26,972 nt of DNA from a virus, in IMG/VR virus record IMGVR_UViG_3300037293_000454, positions 1 to 26,972 of that record. The stretch is one strand, 5' to 3'. The notes under the pieces were generated by a model that was not told the origin of the DNA, did not search any database, and worked only from the letters and a program-made list of their open reading frames with translations. Shown here piece after piece: positions 8,061 through 25,883 of this stretch (position 1 is the first letter of the stretch; each line of letters begins with the position of its first letter). The position numbers and the translations under genes are program-made.

Positions 8061-8094
8061 GAGGATCATGCAAGGCGCGCGCGCGGCGATCCTC
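8061..8094. repeat. GAGGATC inverted repeat beside dispersed repeat copy A
   Basis: GAGGATC (8061-8067) and GATCCTC (8088-8094) are exact inverted copies separated by 20 bases that are rich in GC steps. The right arm overlaps the end of the 18-bp dispersed repeat at 8091. The structure sits in the spacer before the sheath start and could fold in the mRNA. It is not shared by the other four repeat copies, so it may be incidental. Confidence 0.4.
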
Positions 8095-8108
8095 TGGCGG
8101 ATTTCCCG
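8091..8108 (-). repeat. 18-bp dispersed repeat, copy A (before sheath)
   Basis: This is one of five exact copies of CGGGAAATCCGCCAGAGG (minus-strand reading). It begins in the codon just after the TGA of the upstream 89-residue frame, in phase with that frame, and is followed by GAT. With its upstream flank (TGAGCGGG...) it is identical to copy B over at least 23 bases. The sheath start lies 62 bases downstream. The stem GCGG/CCGC with loop GAAAT can form here. Confidence 0.9.
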
Positions 8109-8109
8109 C

Positions 8110-8370
8110 TCAGCCGATCAGCGCGGCGACATCAGGGTTTTCATCGAGGAACGCCTGCAGCTTGGCGACAGGGTCGGGCTGCGTCGGCTCGCGCACGACA
8201 GCCCACGCCGCGCCGCTCCAGCGCGCTGCCATCCCCTCGGTCACCACGATCGGCGGAGCGACGGTCACGCAGCGCGCCGGGAGCAGGAACAGGCCCGGCT
8301 CGAGCGGCGAAGGCTCGGCATCGATCGAGCCGACATAAAAGCCCGCATGGTCGTGTTGATAGGCGATCAC
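8110..8370 (-). CDS. Small tail-fibre assembly-like protein
   Basis: This is a small protein (86 residues from GTG 8370; the frame stays open to another GTG at 8379). It begins MIAYQHDHAGFYVGSIDAEP and continues with SPLEPGLFLLPARCVTVAPP, a pattern I know from small phage proteins encoded after tail fibres and often annotated as tail-fibre assembly or DUF4376-like. It then has a Trp-rich 'ARWSGAAWAVVRE' segment. I prefer GTG 8370 because GAGGA lies nine bases upstream, whereas GTG 8379 abuts the same GAGGA. It sits immediately after the fibre gene as expected for a chaperone. A dispersed repeat follows directly after its stop in the same phase. Function is inferred mainly from position. Confidence 0.75.
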   Translation of the reverse strand: MIAYQHDHAGFYVGSIDAEPSPLEPGLFLLPARCVTVAPPIVVTEGMAARWSGAAWAVVREPTQPDPVAKLQAFLDENPDVAALIG

Positions 8371-8382
8371 CGCAGCCACTCC

Positions 8383-8406
8383 TCAAAATTTGATGCAGAT
8401 TATTCA
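8383..8406 (-). repeat. In-frame duplicate of fibre terminal codons
   Basis: The fibre gene ends TGC ATA AAA TTC TGA (Cys-Ile-Lys-Phe-stop). Two codons later, still in the same frame, comes TGC ATC AAA TTT TGA (8397-8383), again Cys-Ile-Lys-Phe-stop but with different third bases. C-I-K-F/Y is a common terminus of collar-type phage fibres. The second copy looks like the remnant end of an older fibre C-terminus. Confidence 0.8.
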
Positions 8407-9813
8407 GAATTTTATGCAGCTCAGCACTGCGACGTTGCGCGAGCGCGTCTCCGACCCTGAAAGCAATTGTTGATTGCCCGTGCCTGTGTCTCGGTTGTTC
8501 CCAGTGCCGCCGGTTAATGTTCCGGTGGTCAAATAATTGTGATTGCCGTCCGATCTCCGCGAAAAATAAGATCCTGACCATGCCCGCGAGATGAAGGAAA
8601 AATTGTCCTCGTTATCAGCCAAAAACTGCCCTGTGCCATGATAATGCGTTTGCATGTTGTGGCCCTGACCAGAGCCAAAAGCCCGACTGGAATCAATGCC
8701 GCGCCCATCATCCCATCCGCGCCGGAACTCGCCGCGCAGATCAGGAAGTCTGAAAGTGTTTACACCATCACCGTCGCCCCAGGCCGTCCCGATCGCGGCG
8801 AACAGCTCCGCATAGGCGACGCGGCCGACCGTGGCGCCGTTGCACTTCAACCACCCCGTGGGCGCCGTCGCCATGGCGAAGTCCATCAGCGCGCCCGCTG
8901 GGGTCCGCTGCTTGGTCGCCTCGATCGACAGCACGCCCAAATTTGCGCGCCCCAGCGCCTTGTCCGGAACGTCCGAAAGGTTTTGCGCCTGCAGGAGCGC
9001 GTCTGGCAGATCGGACGCCGGCTCGTTCTGCACCGCGATGATCTCGGATCCGGCATAGGCCTGTCCGAGATGCAAGCGGCTCGAGATCGAGCCATTGGGC
9101 TGCCATCCATCAGCGCCCGCCTTGAGCGGCAAGCGCAGCCCGTCGATATAAACCGCAAGCCCGGCGGTGTTGACGATCACCAGATCGACCTGCGTCTGCG
9201 CCGCGGCAAGCGTCTGAAATTCCTCAATGGTGGAGACGGTCACGTTCACATCGGTCGGATCCGCCCACTCGGTGTCGCCGCAGCCGTTGGTCGCCTTGCG
9301 CAGAACCTGCCCGGTGGTGCCGCCGGGAATGATGGAGCAGGCGTTTGCATTGTTCGCCACCCATGTCTGCGTCGCGATCGAGACATTGGGATCCACGACC
9401 AAGGTGATGACGGCCGCGTTCGAAACCTCGAACTCGACCCGCACCACGGTGTCAGCGAATGCGCCTTCGTTCGCCACCGGCTTGTAGGTTTCGGGCAGGC
9501 TTCCCACAACGAACAGCGTCCCGTTCGCATTGAACAAGCCGACCTCGCGCAGGGTGAACCCGCCCTCCGCCGCCGGGATCATCAGCTCTGCGGCGTAGGC
9601 GTTCGGGCGGCCCGATGGGTCGGGCTTGTAGACCCGATTGATGCCGGCGCGAAACCGCTCGCGCGCGAGCCCGGTCTGCTCGGGGTCCGGGATGACCGCG
9701 ACACCCAAGCCATCGCCGACCGCCATCTCGGTCAAATTAATCGGCACGCCCAGCGCTTGAGATTGAACGAGCGCCAGAAGCCCGGCCGTTGTGTGAATTG
9801 TGGCAAAGGACAT
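8404..9813 (-). CDS. Tail fibre with N-terminal DUF3751-like and collar domains
   Basis: The 469-residue protein is the side tail fibre, in the position of P2 H. Residues 1-150 match the fibre attachment domain of P2-like phages (TTAGLLALVQSQALGVPINL, 'GGFTLREVGLFNANGTLF'). A linker region follows. Around 305-365 there is a phage collar domain, visible as PAGALMDFAMATAPTGWLKCN then 'FRLPDLRGEFRRGWDDGRGID'. The tip (about 370-469) is Gly/Asn/His-rich, ends SCIKF, and is encoded by visibly AT-richer DNA than the N-terminus, a usual sign of host-range module exchange. The start has GGAG six bases upstream. Receptor specificity cannot be read from sequence. Confidence 0.93.
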   Translation of the reverse strand: MSFATIHTTAGLLALVQSQALGVPINLTEMAVGDGLGVAVIPDPEQTGLARERFRAGINRVYKPDPSGRPNAYAAELMIPAAEGGFTLREVGLFNANGTLFVVGSLPETYKPVANEGAFADTVVRVEFEVSNAAVITLVVDPNVSIATQTWVANNANACSIIPGGTTGQVLRKATNGCGDTEWADPTDVNVTVSTIEEFQTLAAAQTQVDLVIVNTAGLAVYIDGLRLPLKAGADGWQPNGSISSRLHLGQAYAGSEIIAVQNEPASDLPDALLQAQNLSDVPDKALGRANLGVLSIEATKQRTPAGALMDFAMATAPTGWLKCNGATVGRVAYAELFAAIGTAWGDGDGVNTFRLPDLRGEFRRGWDDGRGIDSSRAFGSGQGHNMQTHYHGTGQFLADNEDNFSFISRAWSGSYFSRRSDGNHNYLTTGTLTGGTGNNRDTGTGNQQLLSGSETRSRNVAVLSCIKF

Positions 9814-9848
9814 GCGTCTCTCCGATTCAGATTTGGGAAATTATGCCG

Positions 9849-10388: not shown

Positions 10389-11280
10389 CCACGCCCCCGA
10401 TCGTCACTGTGACCGCGGTGCAAAATGCGGCCTCTCCATCGCCCATGACGATGCCCGCAGCCGGGCTCGCGAGCGCGACGTTTTGCACGCCCGCCTGATG
10501 CAGCGCGGCGTAGATGCCAGACAGGGTCACGTCATAGCCGAGCCGGTGCTGCGCAGCGGCATAGGCCAATGCCGCCTCTTCCGATGTGGCGCGGATGATC
10601 TCCGCGTCCGGGCCCGGATAGACGGTCAGCGCCGCCGTGATCTGGTATTCGGTCACGCTGGCGGATTGGACCACAACGGAGTCGGTCATCGGCCGCACGG
10701 TGTCGGCAGAGAGCACCGCGGCGACAGCGTCGATCAAATCGACGCTCGCCGCGCCCGAGCCCACGCGCGAAAGGACATAGATCGTCACCACGCCCGGCGC
10801 CGGGCTGACCGCTTCAGCGTCTCGAACCTCGGGGTCTGCGCCCAGCGCGTGGAACACATAGGATGCCGCCGACCCCGCGACCGTATAGGCCTCCGGGCTC
10901 AGCTGCACGCGCCGGCGCAAATCGGTGTCGCTCTCATAGATGGCAGGAACAGGCGGCACCGCCGCCGCGTCGCCAGGATCGAGGGTGAGCCGAGCGACAG
11001 AAAAATTCGCGCCGATCTGATCAAGATCCGCGCCGGCGGCGTAGGCCAGCATGACGGCGCGCGCCGCCTCGTTGATCCGCTGGCGCGTCAGCAGCGCGAC
11101 ATAGCTGGCGACCTGCATCGCCTTCATGGTCGGATCGCTCTCGACCAGCGCATCGAACTCAGGCGCGCGCGACACCAGATCCGCAAGCGCTGAGGCGAGG
11201 ATGTCCTCGAAGGAGATCTCATCGATCACATCGGGCGCAGGAAGCTGCGAGAGATCGACTGCAGTGAAAGCACCGGCCAT
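10381..11280 (-). CDS. J: Baseplate assembly protein J
   Basis: The 299-residue protein is a baseplate J family wedge protein (P2 J, Mu gp47, T4 gp6-like). Conserved traits include the N-terminal DLSQLPAPDVIDEISFEDIL, the 'AVMLAYAAGADLDQIGANF' segment (about 75-94), the DTDLRRRVQLSPEAYTVAG segment, and the C-terminal beta-alpha repeat 'YDVTLSGIYAALHQAGVQNV'. Its start shares TGATG with the end of W and it overlaps I by eight bases. These are tight couplings typical of the P2 V-W-J-I cluster. Confidence 0.95.
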   Translation of the reverse strand: MAGAFTAVDLSQLPAPDVIDEISFEDILASALADLVSRAPEFDALVESDPTMKAMQVASYVALLTRQRINEAARAVMLAYAAGADLDQIGANFSVARLTLDPGDAAAVPPVPAIYESDTDLRRRVQLSPEAYTVAGSAASYVFHALGADPEVRDAEAVSPAPGVVTIYVLSRVGSGAASVDLIDAVAAVLSADTVRPMTDSVVVQSASVTEYQITAALTVYPGPDAEIIRATSEEAALAYAAAQHRLGYDVTLSGIYAALHQAGVQNVALASPAAGIVMGDGEAAFCTAVTVTIGGVDV

Positions 11281-11618
11281 CAGAGAACCTCTATCCCGTC
11301 CACAGTTACCAGCTCGCCATCGGGCAGGTAGAGCCCGGCGATCGCCAGCACGACATGGCCAGGCGCCGCCTCGGTCGCGGTGACTTGCTGCACCACGATC
11401 CGCGGCTCCCAGCGCGCCAGCGCCTCGGCCGTCGCGGCGAAGATCGCCAGCATGGTCGCCGAATTCATCGGCGCATCCACCAGCTGATAGAGGCGCGAGC
11501 CATAGTCGCGCCGCATCACCCGCGTGCCGATCGGGGTCGTCAGGATATCGCGCACCGACTGGCGGAGGTGCGCGATGCCAAAGACTGGCTTTCCGGTGAT
11601 GGGGTTGGTGCCGTTCAT
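11280..11618 (-). CDS. W: Baseplate protein W (gp25-like)
   Basis: The 112-residue protein is a P2 W / T4 gp25 lysozyme-like baseplate protein. Evidence is the HLRQSVRDILTTPIGTRVMR block, followed by 'RRDYGSRLYQLVDAPMN', both diagnostic. The ATG at 11618 is the only usable start in the frame, yet no clear ribosome site precedes it. The codons between the TGA of V and this ATG are all sense and in frame, so only the single TGA separates V from W. A copy of the 18-bp dispersed repeat fills that spacer. Translation may therefore rely on coupling to V. Confidence 0.95.
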   Translation of the reverse strand: MNGTNPITGKPVFGIAHLRQSVRDILTTPIGTRVMRRDYGSRLYQLVDAPMNSATMLAIFAATAEALARWEPRIVVQQVTATEAAPGHVVLAIAGLYLPDGELVTVDGIEVL

Positions 11619-11650
11619 GCCGCGATCATGGCTGCGCGCGACGCTCGCAT

Positions 11651-11668
11651 CCTCTGGCGGATTTCCCG
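11651..11668 (-). repeat. 18-bp dispersed repeat, copy B (between V and W)
   Basis: This is an exact copy of CGGGAAATCCGCCAGAGG on the minus strand, beginning four bases after the V stop region (TGA GC...), in phase with the V frame, then GAT. It is 33 bases upstream of the W start. The stem GCGG/CCGC with loop GAAAT can form. The adjacent TGAGCGGG flank is shared only with copy A. Confidence 0.9.
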
Positions 11669-11669
11669 C

Positions 11670-12239
11670 TCAGGTCTGGTTGGGCGGCGTCGTCGTTCCA
11701 CCGCCCGAAGGCGCCTGATGGGTGTGCGAGCCAAGCGAGATGCCGCCCGCGGCGACAGCGCCGGTCGCCGTGACGTTGCCGCTCGCGGCGACATTGCCTG
11801 TCGTCGTGACATTGCCACCGCTGACAGCCACGGTCGCGTTCACGCCCACGCCGCCGCCGCCGATGGTCACGACCGTGCCGCCGGCGGAGATCTCGATCGC
11901 GCCATCGCGGACCGAGATCGAGGCATCGCCCAGCTGCAGGCGATGCTCGGCCGCGTCCGTCGAGGGCGCGGCGCGCGCGGCGCTGAACAGCGAGCCGACG
12001 ATCACGCCCTGCGCGGTGTCGCCGCCCGGCGCCAGCACCAGCACCTGCTCGCCAACCGACACCGGCGCCCAGACGCTGATGGTCGCCGCCCGCTCGGCAA
12101 GCCACGGAAGCCATGCGGAGACAGCCTCGCCGCCCAGGCTCACCCGCGCGCGCGCGGCGGAGGCGTCGACCGCGGTCACAACGCCGATCCGCACCAAGCC
12201 CTGCATGCGCCGATCGATGTCGCCCAGCGCCCAGCTCAT
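11670..12239 (-). CDS. V: Baseplate assembly protein V, central spike
   Basis: The 189-residue protein is the P2 gpV / Mu gp45 spike that pierces the membrane. The N-terminal OB-fold region includes DRRMQGLVRIGVVTAVDAS and the typical 'SVGEQVLVLAPGGDTAQGVI' (about 66-85). The C-terminal half is a short-repeat beta-helix (alternating V/T/G in 'TVVTIGGGGVGVNATVAVSG'). It ends with a His-x-His motif, GSHTHQ (near residue 174), which in gpV spikes coordinates the metal at the tip. An extra Gly/Thr/Pro tail follows. The start overlaps the preceding stop by three bases. Confidence 0.94.
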   Translation of the reverse strand: MSWALGDIDRRMQGLVRIGVVTAVDASAARARVSLGGEAVSAWLPWLAERAATISVWAPVSVGEQVLVLAPGGDTAQGVIVGSLFSAARAAPSTDAAEHRLQLGDASISVRDGAIEISAGGTVVTIGGGGVGVNATVAVSGGNVTTTGNVAASGNVTATGAVAAGGISLGSHTHQAPSGGGTTTPPNQT

Positions 12240-13181: not shown

Positions 13182-13217
13182 CTGCACCACCTCATTATTT
13201 AAGAAGTTTCGCCCACG

Positions 13218-15680
13218 TCAAACCCCGTTTAGAATATCGCGCTGCGCGCCAAGCTCACCCCATGCAGCGGCGACTTGCTCAGCGGTCAATGCGCCCGATG
13301 AACCGACCGCGGGAAATATCCCGATGAATGCAATACTAGCGCTTGCTGTGTTACCGGAAGAGTCCGACAATAGCCGGGAAATTTTGAAAGTCGTTGTTGG
13401 TGAGGAAGAAAAGCCGCCGCCTCGCGATGCGTCCAAATCCTCATCCGTCCAAAGTTCGGCGCCATTATTTTCAGAAAATACCAGTCGCATCACATACCAT
13501 TGATCTGCTGATACAGTGGTGCCGTATGGACTCGTCATGAAAGTTGCGCCATATAAGGTTTTTCCAAAAACAATTCTTATATCTCCGTGACTACCCCTTA
13601 TCCAAAAATCCAAGTTTTCTTGGTTGCTCAAAAGTCTGCCGCTGCTTGGAGCCTGAAACAACACCCAAGCCTCACGCCCGCGCAAGTCTGTGTCTGCCGA
13701 GGCTTCGAGGTAGCCGCCACCAGCCCCGCCACCTTGAACATACTTTAGGCGGTTTGACGTTGCCACAGTAACGCCAGTTTCGGTGCCGCCATTTTGACGG
13801 TATGCGGCAAAATTATTGCCGGAAATGTCCAACCAATCGCCAACTTGCTGCCCATCAGTCTGCGAAAGCGAGTCCAGGTTGTTGGCGTCATGGATCCGTA
13901 TTGATGGGTATTCGTTCCAAAAATAATGATTACCATAAACCGCCAGCACATCCGCCGCCGCCGTCGCCGCCCCGGCCGCCGTGAAGTCGGCAGGGCTGGC
14001 AAGCTGACCGCCGTAAAGATGCGCCCCTGCGCCGCCAATTCGCAGAGTTTCTGCAATGGGCGCGTCATACCCAGCGCGAGAGGCGTTGACGACATTGCCT
14101 GCGGTGTCTCCTGACAGGGCAAGAAACAATCCGCCTGATCCAAGCGCGGCCGTGAAGCCAAAGACCTCATCGCGCGCCGGCAGAGCGCGGGAGATGCCGA
14201 TCGGTGCGGCGACGTCATCGGAGATCTCCACGCGCAGATCGTCGCCGATCACCTCGACGCGGAAATAGCCGCCGCCAACCGCAGCGGTTTCAACCACGCG
14301 GCCAGCGGTGATGCCAGCGGGCACCAGGATCGCCAGCGAGACGCCGACATAATCGACGGGCGGTGCCTCGGTGTAGGAATACTCCAGCGCAGATGCATCA
14401 TCGGCAAAGACCAGATGCGCCGTGCCGACAGCGCCAGGCGTGCGGGTCATGGTCCCGACGACCGTCGCCTCGATGCTGAGGTGTCCCGAAAGCAACACTT
14501 TGTCGACGCCCAGCTCATCGTAGAAGGTGGCATCAGTCTGGGGCGCCAGAGCATAAGCAGGTTCGAACCCGCCCGCCACCTGAGCCGTGAACGTCGCGCC
14601 GCCGCCAAGGTCGGTGGTGTAGGTGAACGCGGTGCTGCGCGCTGTTCCCAGCACGTCATAGGCGAAATCAGTGCCGGGATCGAACGTCGCCGCTCCATCC
14701 GTTCCGATCGTGAAAACGCCGCCGTTGCTGCCAGCGATGCTCGCCGCCCAAGGCGCGGCCGCCCCGTTGACCGATGCCACGCTGGTGGCGCTTGGGTCAT
14801 TGGAAAGGATGCTGATGCCGGTGACGATTGGCGTGGCCTCGCCGTTGCTGGCCTGAACCGAAATGCTCTCCGAGAACGAAAGCCGCAGGGTGTCGACAGT
14901 GCTGCGCAGCACGTCGATGAGCAGATTGACCTGAGTGTCAGTCGGAATGCCCAATGCGTGGGTGTAGACCAGCGCGCGGTTTGCGCGGATCGCCGTGCCG
15001 CGCGGCGTTCCTGTGGCGTCGCTGAACACAGAACCCATGAAGTAGGGCATGTTGGTCGGGTTGGTGCGAACCCCGCCATCGAAGGTGATCCGGTCCAGCT
15101 CCGCCCAGGGTCCGTTTCCGTCCAGACCGTGGCCAAACGAGCGGATGAAGGAATTTCCGCTTTCGGCTAGGCGCGCGTGGATCACATACCACCGATTGTA
15201 GGCATGCGTCTGAGCGCCGGTCCGATTGCCATCGTCTGCGCCGGTCTCGAAGATCTTGACCGTCCGCAGTCTGCCGTTGGAGAAGCCAAACCGACGATTG
15301 ACGACATCGCCCATGATGAAGGCTTCGCCACCAGTCTGCATCACCAGACCGAAGATGTCTGTTTTGCGGATGTCGAAGTTGCTGGCAGTGACCAGCCAAT
15401 CCGCATCTGCATCGTCGCCCTGGTCCACGCTCTGGAACCACGGGATTCCGTTGGTCGCTCCCACAGTCAAATGCCGCGCAGGGTTTGCTTGGGTGAACGC
15501 CGGAAGCCCCGATGCGCTGTCGTTGGGCAGGGTCTGCGTGCCGCCCGGCACAGTGACGATGCTGGCCGCGTTGTGGTCGCGAACCAGCTTGCCGCCAAGC
15601 GTGAGCTCGAACGGCAAGGATTGGCGAAGAAGCGAGCCGCTGATGAGATTGGACAGGAGCGACTGACGGATCAGGGCCAT
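13218..15680 (-). CDS. Large modular virion protein (LamG-like, VCBS-like domains)
   Basis: The 820-residue protein has no single known family. Residues about 60-260 and 630-810 look like concanavalin/LamG jelly-roll domains; typical phrases are 'YNRWYVIHARLAESG' and 'AWVLFQAPSSGRLLSNQ' with 'DQWYVMRLVFSENNG'. Between them, about 270-370, is a cadherin/VCBS-like domain ('SNGGVFTIGTDGAATFDPGT', FTYTTDLGGGATFTAQV), and 410-600 is another beta-rich section. Such proteins decorate phage particles and bind glycans. It lies between head-tail joining genes and tail genes, where a decoration or accessory fibre fits. The 3' end is clearly AT-richer (13561-13620 is one third G+C), as if the terminal LamG module came from a different source. 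The carbohydrate ligand is unknown. Confidence 0.75.
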   Translation of the reverse strand: MALIRQSLLSNLISGSLLRQSLPFELTLGGKLVRDHNAASIVTVPGGTQTLPNDSASGLPAFTQANPARHLTVGATNGIPWFQSVDQGDDADADWLVTASNFDIRKTDIFGLVMQTGGEAFIMGDVVNRRFGFSNGRLRTVKIFETGADDGNRTGAQTHAYNRWYVIHARLAESGNSFIRSFGHGLDGNGPWAELDRITFDGGVRTNPTNMPYFMGSVFSDATGTPRGTAIRANRALVYTHALGIPTDTQVNLLIDVLRSTVDTLRLSFSESISVQASNGEATPIVTGISILSNDPSATSVASVNGAAAPWAASIAGSNGGVFTIGTDGAATFDPGTDFAYDVLGTARSTAFTYTTDLGGGATFTAQVAGGFEPAYALAPQTDATFYDELGVDKVLLSGHLSIEATVVGTMTRTPGAVGTAHLVFADDASALEYSYTEAPPVDYVGVSLAILVPAGITAGRVVETAAVGGGYFRVEVIGDDLRVEISDDVAAPIGISRALPARDEVFGFTAALGSGGLFLALSGDTAGNVVNASRAGYDAPIAETLRIGGAGAHLYGGQLASPADFTAAGAATAAADVLAVYGNHYFWNEYPSIRIHDANNLDSLSQTDGQQVGDWLDISGNNFAAYRQNGGTETGVTVATSNRLKYVQGGGAGGGYLEASADTDLRGREAWVLFQAPSSGRLLSNQENLDFWIRGSHGDIRIVFGKTLYGATFMTSPYGTTVSADQWYVMRLVFSENNGAELWTDEDLDASRGGGFSSSPTTTFKISRLLSDSSGNTASASIAFIGIFPAVGSSGALTAEQVAAAWGELGAQRDILNGV

Positions 15681-15683
15681 GGT

Positions 15684-15908
15684 TCAGCGCACCGCGAACG
15701 TGGCGCCGCCGGTGGGCACGATCCGGACCTTGGCATGGCCGAATGTCAGCTCGCCGGCATAATCCGCGCTGATCGTATCGGAGCTGATCCAGACGCCGGC
15801 GTCGTGCTCGACCTGAACGTCGACCGTGCCGCCGTTCGCCTTGACGGTCAGGATCCGCGTCTCGCCGCGGTAGGTCCCGCCGAAGTCATGCGTCGCCGAA
15901 AATGCCAT
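15684..15908 (-). CDS. Small beta-rich structural protein
   Basis: This 74-residue protein starts at ATG 15908, two bases after the stop of the gpZ-like gene; an upstream extension of the same frame is only the shadow of that gene. It is almost wholly beta-like and Gly/Thr/Val-rich (TRILTVKANGGTVDVQVEHD, 'AKVRIVPTGGATFAVR'). It looks like a small decoration or head-completion protein, since it lies at the junction between head-joining genes and the large modular virion protein. I recognise similar unnamed proteins in alphaproteobacterial phages but no function. Confidence 0.65.
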   Translation of the reverse strand: MAFSATHDFGGTYRGETRILTVKANGGTVDVQVEHDAGVWISSDTISADYAGELTFGHAKVRIVPTGGATFAVR

Positions 15909-15910
15909 CA

Positions 15911-16471
15911 CTAGATCCCCAAGGTTGCCCGCGCGCGCAGATCGGCGCGGAAATGCGTCATGAAGATCGCCCCAATATCTGGGAAAACCTCGTCCTCGAC
16001 ATAGGCGAGCATCTGGTCCGACACCGGCAGCTTCTGCTCGGCGATCGGCAGGTCGGCCGCGGTCTTGCGCTGGAAAATCGTCCGCTTGCCGACATCCGTC
16101 CCGTGGGTTTTCTTCGCGATGAACCCGCCCGAAAAGCTCACGCCGCGGAACTGCGCGCCGACAGGCGATGCGGTAGGGCGGCCCTTGAATGCGGATATCG
16201 GCAGGTCGTTCGCGCCGAACCAAACCCCGAGCTCGGCGCGCGAGCCGCCGCGACGCAAGCTGGTCCCCTTGAGGCGTCGCCGCAGCGCCTTTACGTTGCG
16301 AAGCCCCAGCGCGACCCTCAGCTCCTTGGATGCGCGCTTGCGGATCGTCGCCGCGGTTCTGGCGAGGGCGCGCCCCGCGGCCTTCTTGACCTGCAGCTCG
16401 GTCGCGCCAAGCTCGGCCGCCAGCGCCTGCATGCCCTCGAAGTCGATGTTGATTGAAAGCCCGCCCAGCAT
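15911..16471 (-). CDS. Minor tail protein Z-like joining protein
   Basis: The 186-residue protein fits the lambda minor tail protein Z family. Traits are the N-terminal helix with 'QVKKAAGRALARTAATIRKR', the basic RVALGLRNVKALRRRLKG region, the central 'GVWFGANDLPISAFKGRPT', and C-terminal FPDIGAIFMTHFRADLRA. In lambda, Z is needed to finish the tail so that it joins the head properly. Start ATG 16471 shares TGATG with the previous stop; a GTG three bases earlier is also possible. It follows the gpFII-like gene, as in lambda. Confidence 0.85.
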   Translation of the reverse strand: MLGGLSINIDFEGMQALAAELGATELQVKKAAGRALARTAATIRKRASKELRVALGLRNVKALRRRLKGTSLRRGGSRAELGVWFGANDLPISAFKGRPTASPVGAQFRGVSFSGGFIAKKTHGTDVGKRTIFQRKTAADLPIAEQKLPVSDQMLAYVEDEVFPDIGAIFMTHFRADLRARATLGI

Positions 16472-17082: not shown

Positions 17083-19233
17083 TCAGGTCAGGTCGATGCC
17101 GCGGCAGAAGCTCTCGGCGCGGCGGAAAACAAAATCGACGTCTTGGAACATGGTGATGCGCAGGCGGCCCTTCTGGCTGAGGCTGTAGGGATCGACCAGA
17201 ATGTCGAGCCCGCCCCACATGCCGATCAGCGCATCCGCGAAGTTGCCGAAGAACGTCTCGCCAGACGCGATCTGGTTGGTGATCTCGGTCCGGTAGCCGT
17301 TCACGGTGTTCCCCTGCTCCCAGACGGTCGAGCCGGCCGCGCCCGCGAACTTCTCGGTGGTTTTCCAATGGCCGCGCATGCGCGCATCGGCGACGTAAGC
17401 CATGCTGTTCACGTCTGCGTTCGACGCGGAGATCTCCGTTTCCATCGCAACCACCTCGGCGAAGGTCGGCAGCAGCACGCCACCGCCCGAGCCGGCCCCG
17501 CCGAAATCGATGGTGGCGAGCCCGGACAGATTGCGCAGGCCAAGCGGCTGATTGGCCGACCCGGAGCCATAGAAGAACCCGCGATCGATGCCGATCGCGA
17601 GCGTGCTCGCGAGGTCGCGGCGCACCAGCCCCTCGATGTCGATCGAGGACTGCTGGAGCAGCTTGCGCGTGATCGTGCCATGAGCCGAAATGGTCTTCGG
17701 CGCCATGCTGACCTGATCCATGTCCAGCGCGGATTCGGTGGAGTCGGCGTCCTCATCCAGCCAATAGGCCGTGGCCCCGCCGGTCTGCCGCGGGATATCG
17801 ACGTTCCCGACAAGCCCGCCCAGCGGCGTGCCCAGCTGCATCGCAATGGTGCGATTGCGCAGCATCTCGACAAAGGATTCCGACAGCAGCTCGGTCGCGA
17901 TCGAGAACCCGCCGGTGTCGCCGGCAGCGCCGCCGGCGGTGTCGGTGTTGAGGGCGCGCATCAGCACCTCGGGCGGGATCAGCAGGCCCTTGGCCGAACG
18001 CCCCGACAGCCGCGCCCGCTCGGTCGCGGCCGAAACGAGATCGAGCTCGAGCGCGGCATGCCGCTGGGCCCGCGCGTCGGTCGGGTTGAAGGCGGCCTGA
18101 AACAGCCGCAGGAACCGGAAACCGTCCGCATCGCCCGTGGTCGCGCCAGCCGCGGCGTCGCCGGCCGCGAGCGGACGATTGCCGCCGCGCTGGTTGACGT
18201 GCGCCAGCAGGGCCCGCTGGAAGTCCTCCGGGCTCTTGCCGGTCTCGATGAACTGCGCCGCAAGCTCGAGCGCATCATATTCGCGGCCGAGCGTCATGAT
18301 CGCGGCGACGCGCTGCTGGCTGCGGCTCTCGCCCTCGCCGCGCGCGTGCGCCATGTCCGCGCCGGCTCGCTCGAGCACTTCGAGGATCTCGATGATCTTG
18401 CCGGCATCGTCCACCTTGGCCCGAACGAGGTTGCCCTCGGCGTCGCGCAGGATTTTGGTATTCATGGTGCGGTCCTCGTTGACAGCGCGCGAGGCGCCGG
18501 GGTTGGCTGTTGCCTCATCCTCGCCGACCGCCGGCTCGCGATCCTCTGGCGGATTTCCCGGCGCCGGTGCGGCGCGCCCCACGCCGACCGAGGCGTCGGC
18601 AGGCACGCTCACGATGCTGATCTCGTAAGGGGTCCACTCGGTCACGCGCACCAGGTCGGACATGCCATTGCGCGGCGTGATCTCGATCTTGTCGATCGAA
18701 TAGCCGACCGAGACGTGCTTGCGGATCCCGTCGACCACGTCCGCGAAGATCTCCTCCGCGCGCGCCGATCGACCGAAGCGCACCAAGGCGCGCCCGATCC
18801 GGTCCCCATCGATCCGCGCGCTCTCGATCACGCCGACCTGATTTCGATGGTCGTGGTCGACCAGCAGCGGTGCGCCGCCATCGAGCCGATCCGTGCGCAT
18901 CGCGCCGGCATCGTGCACCAGCACCTCATCGCCGAACCACCGATCGACAGGCGTCTCGGACGAGAACGCCAGCTCGACGGTGCGCGCCGCCTGGTCGATC
19001 GAGCGCACCTCGCCGTGGCGCACCAGCGGCTCGGTCGCGCGGCGCGCCGTGATCTGCGCGAGGGTCGCCGATCGCTGGAAGCGGCCGCCGACGATCATCA
19101 CCCCGCGCGTCTGGTCCTGCGCCGGCCGCATGCATGCCTCGCGGTCCTTGCCGCCCTCGGCGCGGATGGCCTCGGCGTTGGATGCAGGCGAGGCTGCAAG
19201 CGCAGGCGCGTCGGTCTCAAGGTTGCGGTGCAT
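17083..19233 (-). CDS. Fused prohead protease - major capsid protein
   Basis: The 716-residue protein joins two head proteins. Residues about 30-205 are an HK97-type (S78) prohead protease: RSIDQAARTVELAFSSETPV, the 'LLVDHDHRNQVGVIESARID' block containing the candidate catalytic His, and YEISIVSVPADASVGVGRA. A Pro/Ala/Glu-rich linker (about 208-256) contains GNPPED, encoded by the dispersed repeat. From Met257 comes a helical scaffold-like delta region (to about 390). An HK97-fold capsid follows: 'GGFSIATELLSESFVEMLRN', 'NVDIPRQTGGATAYWLDEDA', 'GSGSANQPLGLRNLSGLATI', and the end DVDFVFRRAESFCRGIDLT. The protease normally cleaves off the scaffold after prohead assembly. The ATG overlaps the portal gene by 17 bases. 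An internal ATG with a good ribosome site (18465) may also yield capsid protein alone. Confidence 0.93.
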   Translation of the reverse strand: MHRNLETDAPALAASPASNAEAIRAEGGKDREACMRPAQDQTRGVMIVGGRFQRSATLAQITARRATEPLVRHGEVRSIDQAARTVELAFSSETPVDRWFGDEVLVHDAGAMRTDRLDGGAPLLVDHDHRNQVGVIESARIDGDRIGRALVRFGRSARAEEIFADVVDGIRKHVSVGYSIDKIEITPRNGMSDLVRVTEWTPYEISIVSVPADASVGVGRAAPAPGNPPEDREPAVGEDEATANPGASRAVNEDRTMNTKILRDAEGNLVRAKVDDAGKIIEILEVLERAGADMAHARGEGESRSQQRVAAIMTLGREYDALELAAQFIETGKSPEDFQRALLAHVNQRGGNRPLAAGDAAAGATTGDADGFRFLRLFQAAFNPTDARAQRHAALELDLVSAATERARLSGRSAKGLLIPPEVLMRALNTDTAGGAAGDTGGFSIATELLSESFVEMLRNRTIAMQLGTPLGGLVGNVDIPRQTGGATAYWLDEDADSTESALDMDQVSMAPKTISAHGTITRKLLQQSSIDIEGLVRRDLASTLAIGIDRGFFYGSGSANQPLGLRNLSGLATIDFGGAGSGGGVLLPTFAEVVAMETEISASNADVNSMAYVADARMRGHWKTTEKFAGAAGSTVWEQGNTVNGYRTEITNQIASGETFFGNFADALIGMWGGLDILVDPYSLSQKGRLRITMFQDVDFVFRRAESFCRGIDLT
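18463..18477 (-). promoter_or_regulatory. Internal ribosome site and start for separate capsid protein
   Basis: Within the protease-capsid frame, GAGGA (18477-18473) lies seven bases before an in-frame ATG (18465-18463). Translation from here would give a 460-residue scaffold-capsid protein without the protease. It begins MNTKILRDAEGN, directly after the variable linker, exactly where a stand-alone capsid gene would start. Confidence 0.65.
18543..18560 (-). repeat. 18-bp dispersed repeat, copy C (protease-capsid linker)
   Basis: An exact copy of CGGGAAATCCGCCAGAGG lies within the linker of the protease-capsid fusion, read as GNPPE then Asp. It is 78 bases before the internal capsid start. 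The preceding codon is CCG rather than GCG, which breaks the outer pair of the GCGG/CCGC stem seen in copies A, B and E. Confidence 0.9.
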
Positions 19234-20875: not shown

Positions 20876-21408
20876 CAGAATTTCACCCGGTGTTCGCGGC
20901 CGATGCCGCGCCGATCGCCCGCCGCCTCACGTTCGCGCTTCACATCGCCGATGTACTGCAGGCGCATCCGGCGCAGATCGGCGAGCGGCGTGCGGCGCAG
21001 CTCGCGGTTGTTGATGCGGTAGCTTTCCTGATCGATGGTCGCGCGGCCCTCGATCACCGCCTCGATCGAGGCGAGCACCTTCTCGGCATGCGTGCGCCCG
21101 TCATACTCCGCGCCGGCGCTGACCAGATCCGGCCGGATGCGAACCTGTCCGCTCCCAAGCTCGATCACGTCGACACCATCGGTCGCGCGCAGCGCCATCC
21201 AATAGGAGCCGGGCACCCATGCGCCGGTGGTCACCGGAGCGGCGCGCAAGGCCCGCACGCCATCGAACTCAGTCGCGGTCAGATCGATGACAGCAGCGCC
21301 GCGCAGATGCGCGGTCACCGTCCAGGACGCCGCCGGATAATCGGGCAGCTCGAGCGGAACCAAAAGCGTCAGGCCCGCGATGATCTCAGATGGAAAATTG
21401 ATCGCCAC
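20875..21408 (-). CDS. gpW-like head joining protein with extra N-terminal beta domain
   Basis: The 177-residue protein sits between large terminase and portal, the position of lambda W. Its last 65 residues fit a gpW-like helical pattern: AEKVLASIEAVIEGRATIDQ, then 'YRINNRELRRTPLADLRRMR', and a charged end. The first 105 residues form a separate beta-rich domain (LTLLVPLELPDYPAASWTVT, GSYWMALRATDG), so the gene is more than twice the length of lambda W (68 residues). This layout is known from several alphaproteobacterial prophages, from memory. The start is GTG with a GAGG very close. A dispersed repeat lies 115 bases upstream, in the terminase tail. Confidence 0.75.
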   Translation of the reverse strand: MAINFPSEIIAGLTLLVPLELPDYPAASWTVTAHLRGAAVIDLTATEFDGVRALRAAPVTTGAWVPGSYWMALRATDGVDVIELGSGQVRIRPDLVSAGAEYDGRTHAEKVLASIEAVIEGRATIDQESYRINNRELRRTPLADLRRMRLQYIGDVKREREAAGDRRGIGREHRVKF

Positions 21409-21412
21409 AGCC

Positions 21413-23398
21413 TCACCATGAATTCACCCAGCCTTTGCGCGCGCGCTTGCGCGGGTCCACCCGTGGGGCGCGTTTTCGGGGTGGCGGCGTGGGCTCATCA
21501 TCGGGCAGGGCAGGCGCCGCATCCTCTGGCGGATTTCCCGGCTCCGGCTTGGGCGCGCCAGGGCGCGATCGGGCTGCAGCTGGCGGAGCCGGCGCGGCGG
21601 CCGCCGGCTCCAGCGACATCAGCCGCGCGACAGAACGCGCAATGTTGGGGTTCAGGATCTTGAGTGCCGCGTGCGCATAGACCCGGCAGTCCAGCGCCTC
21701 GTTGCGATCGCGGGTGTTGTTCCACTCGCGAACTGGAAAGCCCTTGATGTAGCGGGTCACCAGCCGCTCCGCGGTCAGCTGGTGGAACCATTCAGGCTCG
21801 CGGTCCGCTGGGAAATGCATGAAGCCCGGGCCCGGCATCTCTACCGCGAGACGGCGCTGCAAGATCAGCTTCGCGCCGTCCACGCCGAGAATGAACAGGT
21901 CGATCGCACGGCCGCGGCGGCCTGACTTTTTGCGGCTCGGCGCTGAGACGATCGGCCGACCCCAGCCGCCCATGCCTTTGATCGCGAACACCCGCCGCCC
22001 GATCTTGCCGCGCGCGTATTCATAGGCGGCCTGCGTGTATCCCGATCGACCGCCGGTATCGAGGCAGGCCGACACGATGCCGAGATGCGCGCCGCTCTCA
22101 TGCCGCCAGGTCTGCGCCAGCAGATCGTCCAGCGCCGCCCAGACCTCGCCGGCCAGCGGATCGCCCCAGAGCACATGATACGCGATCGACCAGCTTTCCT
22201 CGCCCAAGCCCCAGCCGACCACCTCGACCTCGAGGCGATCCTCCTGCATGTCGACGCCCGCCGTCAGGATGGCGGCGCCTTGCGGCACCGGCGCCGCATA
22301 GTCCTCGGCGCGCGTCATCAGCCCGGACGCATCAGCCTGCGCGCCCGCTTCCTCCCAGGTCTCCGCGAGCGAGACGTTGATGAACGTCTGCATGTCGTTC
22401 GCGGCGCGCTTGTCGAGGAAGCTCTGCACGATGTCGCGCAAGGGCCGAAAGCAGCTGTAGAGCTCGGAGAGGTGATAGCTGGCATGGCCGCGGAACGGGC
22501 GTGCGGCCACCCACACGCCGCCGCGGATCGCCGCGATGCGCTGGCCATCATTCCAGATCGACCCGCAGGCCGCGCAGGCATAGCCGGCCGTCTCCGGCAG
22601 GTGCTCGCCCTCGGCATCTTTGGACCACAGCACATTCGACCATTTGAGCGGCTGGCGCTCCGCGCAGTCCGGGCAGGCGACGTGAAAGTGCCTGCGATCA
22701 CCTTGGTCATAGGCGCTTTCGATCCAGCTCACGCCCTTGATCGTGGGCGTGCTGATCTCCATCAACAGGCGCTGATCGCCAAAAGTTGCCGCGCGCTGCC
22801 ACAGCAGCCCGACAGGGTGGCCTTCGGACGTCCGGTCGTAGCCGTCCGTCTCGTCGCAGACGATGAAGGGCGCCGATCGCCCGCGCATCGTCTTTGCGGA
22901 TCCTGACCAAGAGAACATGATGAAGCCGCCGGGATAGGACTTCATGCGCTGATTGTTGACGCCCTCGCCGCGGCCGCCTTCGTGGAGGACAGCCTTCAGC
23001 GAGGGGTTCGCCTCCACCATCGGATTGAACTTCGTCTCGAGCCACGTCAGCAGATCGCCCTGAGACGGCTGCATCATGATCTGCGATGTCGGGTCCTGAC
23101 CGATGCGGAACGCCTGCGCGCACAGCGCCAGCATGGTCTTGCCGACCTGTGCGCCCCACATCAGCGAGACCCGCGTGCAGCGCGGGTTCGACGTCATGTC
23201 CAGCGGCTCTCGCTGGTAGGGCGCATTATCAAAGCGGATCGGGCCGGGGATCGCGTTGCCCAGCGAGATCCGCACGTTGCGCTCGGCCCATTCAGACGGC
23301 AGCAGCTCGGGCGGCGGGCGCAGCATCTGCGCCGCGCGGCGCACGGCGCCCGCCACGCCGAGCGGGTTGCCGAAGGTGTTCGGATCAGGCCGCTGCAT
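21413..23398 (-). CDS. Terminase large subunit (lambda gpA family)
   Basis: The 661-residue protein is the GpA-type packaging ATPase/nuclease. An ATP-binding Walker A-like WGAQVGKT lies at 81-88 and an acidic Walker B site at 'FIVCDETDGY' (about 178-187). A paired-Cys motif follows (CPDC and CAAC, about 240-275), then the nuclease half with 'ILTAGVDMQEDRLEVEVVGW' and ACLDTGGRSGYTQAAYEYAR. It docks at the portal and pumps DNA into the prohead. The C-terminal 70 residues are Pro/Ala/Arg-rich, contain the dispersed-repeat GNPPED, and look non-catalytic. The start overlaps the small subunit gene by 14 bases. Confidence 0.96.
   Translation of the reverse strand: MQRPDPNTFGNPLGVAGAVRRAAQMLRPPPELLPSEWAERNVRISLGNAIPGPIRFDNAPYQREPLDMTSNPRCTRVSLMWGAQVGKTMLALCAQAFRIGQDPTSQIMMQPSQGDLLTWLETKFNPMVEANPSLKAVLHEGGRGEGVNNQRMKSYPGGFIMFSWSGSAKTMRGRSAPFIVCDETDGYDRTSEGHPVGLLWQRAATFGDQRLLMEISTPTIKGVSWIESAYDQGDRRHFHVACPDCAERQPLKWSNVLWSKDAEGEHLPETAGYACAACGSIWNDGQRIAAIRGGVWVAARPFRGHASYHLSELYSCFRPLRDIVQSFLDKRAANDMQTFINVSLAETWEEAGAQADASGLMTRAEDYAAPVPQGAAILTAGVDMQEDRLEVEVVGWGLGEESWSIAYHVLWGDPLAGEVWAALDDLLAQTWRHESGAHLGIVSACLDTGGRSGYTQAAYEYARGKIGRRVFAIKGMGGWGRPIVSAPSRKKSGRRGRAIDLFILGVDGAKLILQRRLAVEMPGPGFMHFPADREPEWFHQLTAERLVTRYIKGFPVREWNNTRDRNEALDCRVYAHAALKILNPNIARSVARLMSLEPAAAAPAPPAAARSRPGAPKPEPGNPPEDAAPALPDDEPTPPPRKRAPRVDPRKRARKGWVNSW
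21523..21540 (-). repeat. 18-bp dispersed repeat, copy D (terminase tail)
   Basis: An exact copy of CGGGAAATCCGCCAGAGG is in frame in the Pro-rich tail of the large terminase, read as GNPPE then Asp. The preceding codon is CCG, as in copy C. It is 115 bases before the start of the gpW-like gene. Confidence 0.9.
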
Positions 23399-23915: not shown

Positions 23916-24115
23916 CGTCTGCTTTCTTTGCGCGCGCCTTGTTACGTATCATCGCAATGTGCCTCAAACCCTTGCGGGGCGGGCGTTTGCGGGCCTTCCG
24001 GGAATAAAGAGCCAAGGATCGAAACCCCACGCAGAACTATGTTTCCGCGATGATTATCCCCCCACCCAGGGTCCCCCCTGAAAAGGACCCGCGCCATTTC
24101 GGGCGGTGCGCGGCC
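23916..24115. other. Gene-free gap before terminase; candidate packaging site
   Basis: I see no credible gene here. Contents are an inverted repeat GGGTCC (24069-24074) / GGACCC (24085-24090), G-rich tracts on the minus strand, and a GATAAT-like hexamer after the tract GGGTGGGGGG. The gap separates lysis from head genes and lies directly upstream of the Nu1-like gene, the place of cos in lambda. A promoter is possible, but no clear -35 is visible. Both roles are inference. Confidence 0.4.
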
Positions 24116-24334
24116 TCAGCGGCCACCGGTCGGGCAGGCGGCGTCGAGCACCGCGAGGAAGGTCGCGGCCTCCTCGCGGCTGCGCGCGGTGTCGAGGCGC
24201 GACCAGGTGGGCAGGGCGCGGCGCACCTCGCGGCACACGGCCGCCGCCTCAATCCCCGTCCCGGAGGCGCCCATGCTCGCGCAGCTGCTCATCGACATTG
24301 CGATCAGGGCGAAGGTTATTTTCCCAAGCCACAT
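24116..24334 (-). CDS. o-spanin lipoprotein (Rz1-like)
   Basis: This 72-residue protein starts MWLGKITFALIAMSMSSCAS; an alternative ATG is seven codons earlier. The hydrophobic signal followed by Ser-Ser-Cys fits a lipoprotein lipobox with the lipidated Cys near residue 18. The mature part is short, with two further Cys. Its start lies inside the i-spanin gene in a different frame and it runs past that gene's end. This is the overlapping Rz/Rz1 layout. Paired with the i-spanin it would fuse inner and outer membranes as the last step of lysis. Spanin sequences vary widely, so the call rests on signal, size and nesting. Confidence 0.72.
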   Translation of the reverse strand: MWLGKITFALIAMSMSSCASMGASGTGIEAAAVCREVRRALPTWSRLDTARSREEAATFLAVLDAACPTGGR

Positions 24335-24533
24335 CGACCCGCGCCTGCATCCCATCGACCCGCTCCCTCTCGTGCTCGTTGATGGCGGCCCGACTGTCGC
24401 GCCGCCCGGCGCGCGTGCCGCGCCAGTAGAGGATGCGCCCGATGATGCCGGCAGCGACCAGCGCGGCCGCGGCGCGGCCCACCCAGCTGCCGCGCACCAT
24501 CGACCACAGCGCGAAGAATGCGGAGGGGATCAT
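24249..24533 (-). CDS. i-spanin-like membrane protein (Rz-like)
   Basis: The 94-residue protein has one N-terminal membrane segment (about residues 17-35, GRAAAALVAAGIIGRILYW) followed by a charged periplasmic helix with RDSRAAINEHERERVDGMQA and little else. This is the layout of an inner-membrane spanin. ATG 24533 overlaps the endolysin stop (ATGA), and the frame overlaps a lipoprotein gene in another phase, as in Rz/Rz1. A longer frame upstream is only the endolysin shadow. No sequence-level hallmark exists for the family, so the call is by architecture and context. Confidence 0.75.
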   Translation of the reverse strand: MIPSAFFALWSMVRGSWVGRAAAALVAAGIIGRILYWRGTRAGRRDSRAAINEHERERVDGMQARVDVAWENNLRPDRNVDEQLREHGRLRDGD

Positions 24534-25162
24534 TCGACCACCCCGCGTCGCCCGAAGGCGCGCCACAGCACCACGCCCAGCGACACGAGCCCCAGGACGG
24601 TGAACGCGCCCGCCACCCAATGATCGGGCAGCAGAGGCGCGGCGTCAGAGACAACGCGCTCAGCGGCCGTCACAGCGAGCGTCACGGCCCCTCCCTCCTT
24701 GAGGGCTTGGGTCTTGGGACGCGCAATCTGTTCGGGCGCGAACCGAACCACACGCGCAGGAAATGGCTTTCCCCAGCTGGCGATGCCCTCGGTCCGATCA
24801 TCGATGTGAACGAAGCCCTTGTGCGGATATGTGCCGAAGCTGGTGAACCCGACCATACGCGCCGCATCAAGCAAGACATGCGGATCCACGTTGTCGACGC
24901 GAATGTCGAAGGCGCGCCCCAGCAAGTGCTGGCTGTGCTTCGCCCCGCTGACGCGCCGATTATGCTCCGGATCACGGTAGGCGCTGGTCACGATCAGCGG
25001 CACGCCCAGCCACTCTCGCAGCGCCTGCAGCTTGTCGAGAGAGGCGCACGACAGCTTGATCGAGCCGTCGCCCTTCGAGGCGAGCTCGGCAGGGCTGAAG
25101 TTGGGCCAGCGCCACGCGGCGAGATCGACCTCCCGCCAGTGCTTGGCTTCGATCATCTCCAT
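24530..25162 (-). CDS. M15 peptidase endolysin with C-terminal membrane segment
   Basis: The 210-residue protein has a peptidase M15 (D-Ala-D-Ala carboxypeptidase type) domain over about residues 18-135. Zinc and catalytic motifs are visible: TSAYRDPEHNRRVSGAKHSQ followed by 'HLLGRAFDI' (H...D ligands) and 'GFVHIDDR' (third His). It would cut stem peptides of peptidoglycan during lysis. Unusually, a hydrophobic helix lies near the C-terminus (about 183-203, WVAGAFTVLGLVSLGVVLWR) and is followed by basic residues, so the enzyme may be membrane-tethered or serve a holin-like role. ATG 25162 shares TGATG with the upstream stop and has a strong GGAGG eight bases before it. Confidence 0.92.
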   Translation of the reverse strand: MEMIEAKHWREVDLAAWRWPNFSPAELASKGDGSIKLSCASLDKLQALREWLGVPLIVTSAYRDPEHNRRVSGAKHSQHLLGRAFDIRVDNVDPHVLLDAARMVGFTSFGTYPHKGFVHIDDRTEGIASWGKPFPARVVRFAPEQIARPKTQALKEGGAVTLAVTAAERVVSDAAPLLPDHWVAGAFTVLGLVSLGVVLWRAFGRRGVVE

Positions 25163-25413
25163 CACCTGTCCCTCCGAAATAAATCCCGCACTTCGCCGCG
25201 CATCTCGCGAACGTCAGTCCGCAGATCTCCGAGTGCGGCCCGATCCTCCGCGCGCAGAGCATCGCGGCCCTCGATCTCGCGTTGCAGCATCTTGATCTGC
25301 TGCTCATTGGTCAGAACGCGGCGGATGACCCATCCCGTCGCCGACACCGCCGCCACGACCAAGGACACGCCGAGAGCCACCAAGCCGGCCTCCACTCGTT
25401 CGCCAAAGCTCAT
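25162..25413 (-). CDS. Small membrane/coiled-coil protein in lysis cassette
   Basis: The 83-residue protein has an N-terminal membrane segment (about residues 9-31, GLVALGVSLVVAAVSATGWV) and then a highly charged coiled coil with 'NEQQIKMLQREIEGRDALRA'. This layout resembles DUF2730-type phage proteins and some lysis accessory proteins. It sits immediately before the endolysin, where a holin often lies, but a single-pass protein with a long coiled coil is not a typical holin. A dispersed-repeat copy ends 62 bases upstream. The function is not known. Confidence 0.7.
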   Translation of the reverse strand: MSFGERVEAGLVALGVSLVVAAVSATGWVIRRVLTNEQQIKMLQREIEGRDALRAEDRAALGDLRTDVREMRGEVRDLFRRDR

Positions 25414-25466
25414 CAGGAAATCGCCCCATGTTTTGCAGTTTCAAAGAGATACTCGCGCGCCATTCT

Positions 25467-25883
25467 TCAAAACGCCTCTGGCGGATTTCCCGCAGCCAAG
25501 ACCTTGCGAACCACGTCCTGAGCCGCCTCGACGCGTTCGGCGATTTCTGCCGAACTGAGCCCGGCGCGCGCAAGGGCGTGGATCACCCGATCCCGCCACG
25601 CCCGCGCGACATGACCGCAATTCGAAGGCTGCAGGATCTCGCCACCGAACCACCGGCGCAGCTTCTCAGCGTCATGCCACCCCATGAGGCGCACCAAGGG
25701 ATGATCAGCGCGCATCTTCTTGGGAATGTAGAGAACCCGTCGCCATGGGCGCGACCCGGAGCGCGGCAGGCTCCCGATCAGAAACAGCGTCCGCTCTCGG
25801 CCGATCACATCCGCAATCTCCTGCGCGCTTGGGTGGAGCGGCACATGGCGCGATGGGCTGACGTGGATCATGCAGGCGCCCAT
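25467..25883 (-). CDS. Mor-like transcription activator
   Basis: The 138-residue protein (from ATG 25883) resembles Mor/C family activators of phages. It has an N-terminal dimerisation-like part, the 'RVLYIPKKMRADHPLVRLMG' region and WHDAEKLRRWFGGEILQPSN. A C-terminal helix-turn-helix follows in 'RDRVIHALARAGLSSAEIAE'. Mor proteins activate middle or late phage promoters. The longer frame upstream, from a TTG, crosses a hairpin and operators, so I reject it; a TTG at 25892 is also possible and start evidence is weak. The last residues AAGNPPEAF include dispersed-repeat copy E. Position between replication and lysis genes supports a switch to late expression. Confidence 0.72.
   Translation of the reverse strand: MGACMIHVSPSRHVPLHPSAQEIADVIGRERTLFLIGSLPRSGSRPWRRVLYIPKKMRADHPLVRLMGWHDAEKLRRWFGGEILQPSNCGHVARAWRDRVIHALARAGLSSAEIAERVEAAQDVVRKVLAAGNPPEAF
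25475..25492 (-). repeat. 18-bp dispersed repeat, copy E (end of Mor-like gene)
   Basis: An exact copy of CGGGAAATCCGCCAGAGG forms the last codons of the Mor-like gene (GNPPE then Ala-Phe-stop), in the same phase as the other copies. Here GAT is replaced by GCG. The next start (25413) is 62 bases downstream. Confidence 0.9.

Follow-up and report, generated by a model that had tools for sequence, protein, structure and literature searches.

The window analyzed here, the 26,972-base virus record IMGVR_UViG_3300037293_000454 taken at its full length, is entirely phage, and an 18-base repeat (the box) recurs along its minus strand at the gene junctions of the predicted late region. Read along that strand, the genes encode a putative transcriptional activator, a small open reading frame (ORF) of unknown function, an endolysin/peptidase ORF, terS, terL, head-tail joining, portal, a fused protease/major capsid ORF (17083-19233), connector, baseplate W (11280-11618), J, tail fiber and sheath. 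A letter match on both strands found five exact copies of the 18-mer, all on the minus strand and precisely where the first-pass annotation had put them, and no additional match in the window when up to 3 mismatches were allowed. The activator gene and the five boxes are as follows.

25467..25883, minus strand: activator gene, Mor-like, PHROG 836 (ORF open to 26006; probable start 25883 or 25871, start codon uncertain)
25475..25492, minus strand: box 1 (18-mer; 17-nt core 25475-25491), in the final codons of the activator gene, before the lysis region
21523..21540, minus strand: box 2, within the 3' end of terL
18543..18560, minus strand: box 3, within the fused protease/major capsid ORF, with the protease match on one side and the capsid match on the other
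11651..11668, minus strand: box 4, between the stop codon of the preceding gene, which it follows directly, and baseplate W
8091..8108, minus strand: box 5, directly after a stop codon, before the tail sheath

Box 1 is followed by an ATG at 25413 that opens an ORF matching a PHROG of unknown function, with the endolysin/peptidase ORF next, box 2 by the start of the head-tail joining ORF at 21408, and box 3 by an internal ATG at 18465 with GAGGA upstream of it; the sheath ATG is probably the one at 8029. Shuffled sequences gave an expectation of 0.08 copies of the 18-mer and none of 100 shuffles reached the five observed, which rules out a chance origin of the copies. The view of the first-pass annotation that the repeat reflects function and not chance is strongly supported, and several of its details are amended here. 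Four copies do share their next letters, given there as GAT, and these are AT, the G being the final base of the 18-mer. No copy lies left of 8091, as had been said of the DNA left of the prophage, but the record is all phage and contains no host flank by which to judge. The unit conserved in relatives is 17 nt (GGGAAATCCGCCAGAGG in the window) with a usual A or AA after it, and not the 18-mer, and the annotated repeat was only half of the element, since a -10-like hexamer, which had been missed, lies 20 nt downstream of every copy:

25449..25454, minus strand: hexamer GAGTAT of box 1, predicted +1 at 25442 (G), by a rule taken from 164 sites
21497..21502, minus strand: hexamer GATGAT of box 2, predicted +1 at 21490 (A)
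18517..18522, minus strand: hexamer GAGGAT of box 3, predicted +1 at 18510 (A)
11625..11630, minus strand: hexamer CATGAT of box 4, predicted +1 at 11618, the A of the W start codon
8065..8070, minus strand: hexamer CATGAT of box 5, predicted +1 at 8058 (G)

Every predicted +1 in the window is a purine. The 164 sites from which the rule was taken all have a 17-nt box; position 2 of their hexamer is A in 157 and position 6 is T in 157, and A2 and T6 were found together in 95% of sites at offset 20 compared with 0-26% at the other offsets from 10 to 33. Bases four and five are A in 114 and 109 sites, and the predicted +1, seven nt past the hexamer, is A in 105 (92 of 153 sites when all box types are counted and W sites are excluded). 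T at hexamer position 1 occurs in two of the 164, below the spacer level of approximately 15 per position, as if a complete -10 were avoided. Four phages (20 sites) have a register shorter by one, with the hexamer at offset 19 and A2 plus T6 in 85%. The bases most important in the sigma-70 -10 element are A at -11 and T at -7, and on these counts the pattern of the hexamer is that of a sigma-70 -10 element. The 17-mer would then lie at approximately -49 to -33 relative to the predicted +1.

The exact 18-mer was scanned against 2.9 million viral contigs and was found in 16 stretches. Twelve of the stretches are closely related to the window, at 84-97% DNA identity over the main aligned pieces and 68-76% over a few others, and three are distant (L016, L019 and L021; 65-81% by piece), each of the three having a box aligned with a window box. 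The remaining carrier, L009, has no similarity to the window and is, by our own estimate, probably a chance hit given the size of the collection. L016 shares 65-71% DNA identity with the window in pieces, with one 78-base piece at 81%, and encodes an activator protein 40% identical to that of the window; its late region has four copies at junctions, with 0-3 mismatches to the window 18-mer, and a fifth lies at the end of its activator gene. That the box is kept in so diverged a phage indicates that these 17-18 nt are better conserved than the surrounding genes.

Relatives of the activator protein were present in 34 phage records, several of which duplicate one another; the one in Achromobacter phage Mano carries a Mor-like annotation. 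Seven named phages were compared (Mano, Mica, PPpW-3, Persinger, FoX5, ECO1230-10 and Arya), and each has its own version of the box, of the same kind with other letters, first seen upstream of four junctions; examples are GGAAAATCCGCAAGAGG in Mano, GGAAATCCCACGGGAGG in Mica, GGAAATTCCGGACATGG in FoX5 and GACAAACCCCAAGAAGA in ECO1230-10. When both strands of each record were scanned with its own box, allowing up to 4 mismatches, six of the seven had a late-strand copy at every one of the five junctions and Arya at four, its lysis copy having drifted beyond 4 mismatches. All remaining matches in the seven had 4 mismatches, one on the late strand and three on the opposite strand. One of the five recurrent junctions is at the lysis genes, one at the terL 3' end and one within the protease/capsid ORF; the other two precede baseplate W and the sheath. 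Relatives thus carry exact or phage-specific boxes, where absence from all related phages had been named in the annotation as the sign of a recent, non-functional spread.

A profile built from eight activators was used to collect loci, of which 80 from viral contigs and 13 from bacterial genomes were kept. In many of these a first, motif-free search found a 17-mer at the end of the activator gene that recurred further downstream, at distances of approximately 4 and 7 kb. A set of 39 phages was made up of the window, L016, the seven named phages and 30 further records that extend up to the sheath gene, in which 184 sites lay within 3 mismatches of the phage's own box and 0 were on the opposite strand of the sequence scanned. 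Exactly five sites were present in 27 phages, six in two (one stray lacking a hexamer in each), four in seven and three in three. Five-site sets do not always occupy the same junctions, L124 having no copy at the activator end. The pair statistics given below leave out two of the 184 sites, in L090 and L072, both with 3 mismatches and lacking a hexamer; these two are kept in all other counts. An unbiased test was applied to the 63 of the 93 loci having at least 7.3 kb downstream, with random windows of the same loci as the control. A box plus hexamer at the activator end recurred downstream with up to 3 mismatches in 48 of the 63 loci versus 5 of 354 random windows, and two recurrences, with the hexamer required, were found in 35 loci versus 0 of 354 windows.

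Four host assemblies of 4.4-7 Mb with related prophages contained the box, at 1 mismatch, 6, 6, 6 and 5 times, on one strand in each, and the copies were confined to contigs carrying the activator or sheath locus; a backwards-box control gave 1 match in one of the four genomes. A bacterial interspersed repeat, scattered through the host in both orientations as the annotation had envisaged, is ruled out by this confinement. Three of the four assemblies have a sixth copy. In three virus records (L075:747, L076:690 and L087:2011) a sixth box, with an A2/T6 hexamer at offset 20, stands before another ORF upstream of the activator and overlaps a terminator-like hairpin, and the regulon may be larger in some phages.

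Copies within a phage differ by 0.53 mismatches per 17 positions on average (305 pairs), compared with 4.73 between phages, and the 39 phages, each with a relative of the activator, hold 32 distinct box sequences. Among the copies of one phage, identity ranges from 0.88 to 1.00 within the box, is 0.53 at the base that precedes it, 0.86 and 0.64 at the two bases that follow and approximately 0.2-0.4 beyond; after the box and its A or AA, some 18 nt show little sharing between copies, and then comes the hexamer. A test for a palindromic operator found none, the symmetry score being 0.371 for the 32 distinct boxes versus 0.440 in shuffles. In distance tests on 35 phages with 2000 permutations, from which L127 was excluded, box distance was correlated with the distance of the activator's helix-turn-helix when TerL was allowed for (r 0.32, 0/2000), and also when both TerL and the N-terminal part of the activator were allowed for (0.30, 1/2000); it was barely correlated with the N-terminal part itself (0.11, 322/2000). 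Such a correlation is predicted if one protein reads all copies, although it is a correlation and not proof of binding.

All 49 aligned relatives of the activator match PHROG 836, 'late transcriptional activator', and the place of the gene before the lysis genes in the window and the seven named phages agrees with that assignment. Pfam Mor (PF08765) was matched by 20 of the 49 at E values up to 0.1 (best 3.7e-7), and comparison of the activator profile with a profile of seven Mor/C proteins gave an E value of 1.1e-6 and a probability of 91%, over an FGGEILQP stretch plus the helix-turn-helix. The depositors of Mano recorded a similarity of its activator to the Mor structure 1RR7. A predicted model (pLDDT 87) has two helix-helix-strand units followed by a helix-turn-helix, and there is possibly an internal duplication in the activator, a suggestion that draws also on a weak half-versus-half comparison (P 0.0012, probability 19%; global alignment 0.076). 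It is tempting to speculate that an intrachain pseudo-dimer would suit an asymmetric site. Upstream of the activator gene, at 26005-26049, a perfect 22-bp palindrome, AAACTGTTGCGCGCAACAGTTT, is present twice in tandem with an adjoining partial copy, and looks like a putative operator able to control the activator.

These data suggest, with a probability that we put at roughly 0.87, that the repeats are the activator-binding halves of five activator-dependent late promoters. The boxes, their recurrent places, the fixed-distance hexamer, the concerted change and the helix-turn-helix correlation are computed directly, and from them we infer binding of the protein to the box, initiation of transcription at these places and its timing as late. 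Box 1 lies in the gene of the Mor-like activator (PHROG 836), and this protein is the likely binder of the boxes. In the proposed mechanism the Mor-like protein of the phage would bind the asymmetric 17-19 bp box at approximately -49 to -31, and the bound activator would direct initiation by the host RNA polymerase at a -10 of the NANAAT type, its first T avoided, lying 20 bp past the 17-mer, with a +1 that is most often A. Boxes and activator helix-turn-helix would change together between phages because one protein must read all the boxes. The five promoters would feed the lysis region, head-tail joining and portal, the capsid part of the protease-capsid ORF, baseplate W, and sheath and tube. 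Of the options that the first-pass annotation had listed, the evidence favors transcription control and gives no support to RNA processing, translation control or a mobile in-frame element. In searches of open-licence PubMed Central, none of the papers listed was recognized as a description of the motif.

A number of results weigh against this proposal. Seven of the 164 sites lack A2 and seven lack T6. The 30 further records were chosen largely because the first search had hinted at a box, and the 63 loci and 39 phages include near-duplicates, so that not all are independent. Fifteen of the 63 activator loci had no recurring box in the 3-mismatch test, though two of these (L123 and L124) do have boxes, elsewhere than at the activator end. 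Other versions of the test had noisier controls: at 4 mismatches at least one recurrence was seen in 49 of 63 loci versus 41 of 354 windows, and two in 42 of 63 versus 2 of 354, and at 2 mismatches with no hexamer rule the figures were 48 of 63 versus 120 of 590, with two recurrences in 29 versus 1. The window activator itself has no Pfam Mor match, generic families match more of the 49 members than Mor does (HTH_23 39/49, Sigma70_r4_2 22/49), and fold searches gave matches to the helix-turn-helix only, Mor not being among those listed. The box has no dyad symmetry by the score given above and is asymmetric, unlike the sites of Mor and C, which are dyads. Lastly, box distance retained a weak correlation with TerL distance when the helix-turn-helix was allowed for (r 0.18, 36/2000), and shared descent was therefore not completely removed.

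This last result also bears on the alternative that survives best, improbable as we consider it, in which the boxes are promoter elements read by another phage protein, ParB-like or a small helix-turn-helix protein, and the activator is merely linked to them. A ParB-like protein and other predicted DNA-binding proteins are indeed encoded by all seven named relatives, and binding by the activator is our interpretation. However, the partial correlation is with the helix-turn-helix of the activator and hardly involves its N-terminal part, the protein has the PHROG 836 name and a relationship to Mor, and the first box lies inside the activator gene, an arrangement comparable to that of the Mu C gene preceding lys.

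It is very unlikely that the box acts in mRNA as a site of processing, antitermination or translation control. Its orientation is fixed within a polycistronic region, and folding of 67-nt RNAs gave z below -2 at 32 of the 184 sites, but the mean z was -0.58 and the window sites ranged from -1.0 to 1.2. The conserved partner of the box is a -10-like hexamer at one exact distance with A favored at +1, W begins at or adjoining that +1, and many sheath boxes are directly preceded by terminators, all of which argue against an RNA element. Less likely still is a mobile or recombinational repeat that spread to module boundaries or serves module exchange. The copies do lie at gene boundaries and are near-identical within a phage, yet matching junctions are occupied in diverged phages, each with a different sequence, there is little common flank past 17-19 nt, and the spacing to the hexamer is fixed; homologous exchange at identical boxes may occur as a by-product.

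The annotation had also stated that all copies share one codon phase, and this holds for all five in the window, if the ORF ending at 11670 is taken as the gene before W, while in relatives it holds for coding copies only. Script-called coding sites fell 96 in one phase versus 22 and 7 in the others, these 22 and 7 being 16-nt boxes shifted by one and some seemingly noncoding sites, and noncoding copies were in random phase to the upstream stop (17/16/16). The random phase at noncoding sites indicates that equal phase is not a property of the element and that the box acts at the DNA level; the phase rule is best read as a protein constraint on coding sites and not as part of the element. A peptide-level element, in which a protein motif (GNPPE or ENPQEE) serves as a tail or linker, would account for the one phase of the 96 coding copies and the shifted phase of the 16-nt boxes, and is the least credible explanation of all, because the noncoding copies, chiefly before W and sheath, have the same DNA in random phase.

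If the boxes do mark activator-dependent promoters, those before W, sheath and capsid differ in what lies around them. W was identified with a recognizer that accepts only starts within about 15 nt after the hexamer, so that longer leaders are invisible to it, and one W site was recognized in 31 of the 39 phages. In all 31 recognized sites W starts 5-8 nt past the nominal hexamer, the distance being 6 nt in 22, and a Shine-Dalgarno-like four-mer before the W start was found in 0 of 28 sites examined. Since the start is at or adjoining the predicted +1 and lacks a Shine-Dalgarno sequence, the W message from its own promoter is probably leaderless. At 16 of the 31 W sites, among them those of L052, L055, L121, PPpW-3 (L039) and ECO1230-10 (L038), the hexamer lies inside a perfect inverted repeat of 6-11 bp, compared with 7 of the 153 sites elsewhere. 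In 13 of the 16 W repeats the 3' arm takes in the complete start codon of W, and the letters of the repeat differ between phages. The mean longest stem was 5.97 at W versus 3.69 in shuffles, and 3.65 versus 3.44 elsewhere. The W site of the window has no inverted repeat around its hexamer. It is possible that the hairpin hides the W start codon in read-through mRNA.

Intrinsic terminators, called with a simple script within 75 nt before the box, were found at 15 of the 36 sheath sites, at 2 of 120 others and at none of the 28 W sites, and a terminator before the sheath box implies that one transcription unit ends there and the next begins. In Mica (L037) the annotated sheath start at 16314 overlaps the -10 hexamer of the predicted sheath promoter, and the true start is therefore probably further downstream. 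The box inside the fused ORF would allow the capsid part to be produced separately from the protease part, beginning at an internal start codon, ATG 18465 in the window.

A joint reading of these features, which we put forward tentatively and regard as doubtful, is that of a large, seemingly undescribed late-promoter system combining an activator of asymmetric operators with a translation switch at W. In its first part, duplicated N-terminal units would form an intrachain pseudo-dimer and a single helix-turn-helix would read the asymmetric operator. In its second, read-through mRNA would bury the W start in a hairpin around the -10 (CATGCCG...CGGCATG), while mRNA from the gene's own promoter would begin at the AUG, leaderless, so that W would be made solely from its own late promoter. 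The W switch would cover about half of the relatives examined, and not the window phage.

Several known systems resemble this one. In phages P2 and 186, Ogr is a small zinc-finger activator of several late promoters with upstream dyad sites; the small phage activator, the several late promoters and the upstream site are alike, and the zinc finger and the dyad sites are differences. The start-associated sequences and stoperators of mycobacteriophages are likewise short asymmetric repeats in one orientation at gene boundaries. To our knowledge they lie at translation starts or are bound by repressor, with no -10 at fixed spacing, whereas the boxes here are paired with a -10 at fixed spacing. Within the Mor family (PF08765), the C-terminal FGGEILQP...HTH of the activator aligns with the GGxxxYIP...HTH of Mor and C, but the alignment is limited to the C-terminal half, and the activator model has two helix-helix-strand units before the helix-turn-helix, weakly suggestive of a duplicated unit.

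The closest parallel is with Mu. According to passages in PMC4287176, the Mor dyad site at Mu Pm lies at -51 to -36 in a promoter lacking a -35, and C activates four late promoters; PMC4461284 describes the -35 of the Mu late promoters (Plys, PI, PP, Pmom) as non-consensus. Both in Mu and here, several promoters serve one late regulon, the activators are related by profile comparison, and the gene for C, like the activator gene of the window, lies directly before an endolysin or lysis gene. The Mor site at Pm, as placed in those passages, and the 17-mer at its predicted -49 to -33 occupy much the same position, and in each case the site, an activator site by prediction here, would be upstream of or overlapping the place of a -35, with a -10 at a fixed distance. 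The differences from Mu are that there are mostly five promoters, at other genes and with one inside the protease/capsid ORF, that W is predicted to be leaderless, that the box sequence is phage-specific, and that the late genes belong to lambda-related terminase and portal families with a P2-like baseplate and sheath. Judged on sequence comparison, the system is very probably a variant of the Mu C kind of activator-dependent late promoters.

Other features of the window were also recorded. An 820-aa ORF on the minus strand at 13218-15680, between the connector and baseplate genes, matched nothing in PHROGs, Pfam, PADLOC, PDB sequences or phage records. Past the last of the tail genes, the minus-strand neighbors 646-1719 and 1728-2357 match PADLOC RmrA (E 2.7e-168) and RmrT (E 2e-74) and are a candidate defense pair. 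An 8-bp tandem repeat, CTGCTCAG, of approximately nine units at 2453-2543 overlaps the 3' end of ORF 2513-3577, and its unit number could be variable.

The proposed promoters would provide a readable late regulon, comprising activator, operator, -10 and start, for proteobacterial myophages, some of which infect E. coli. The 32 distinct boxes among the 39 phages offer a natural test bed for the joint change of specificity of an activator and its five operators. If true, the proposal would explain how capsid is expressed separately from a fused protease-capsid gene, and it would predict leaderless expression of a baseplate gene.

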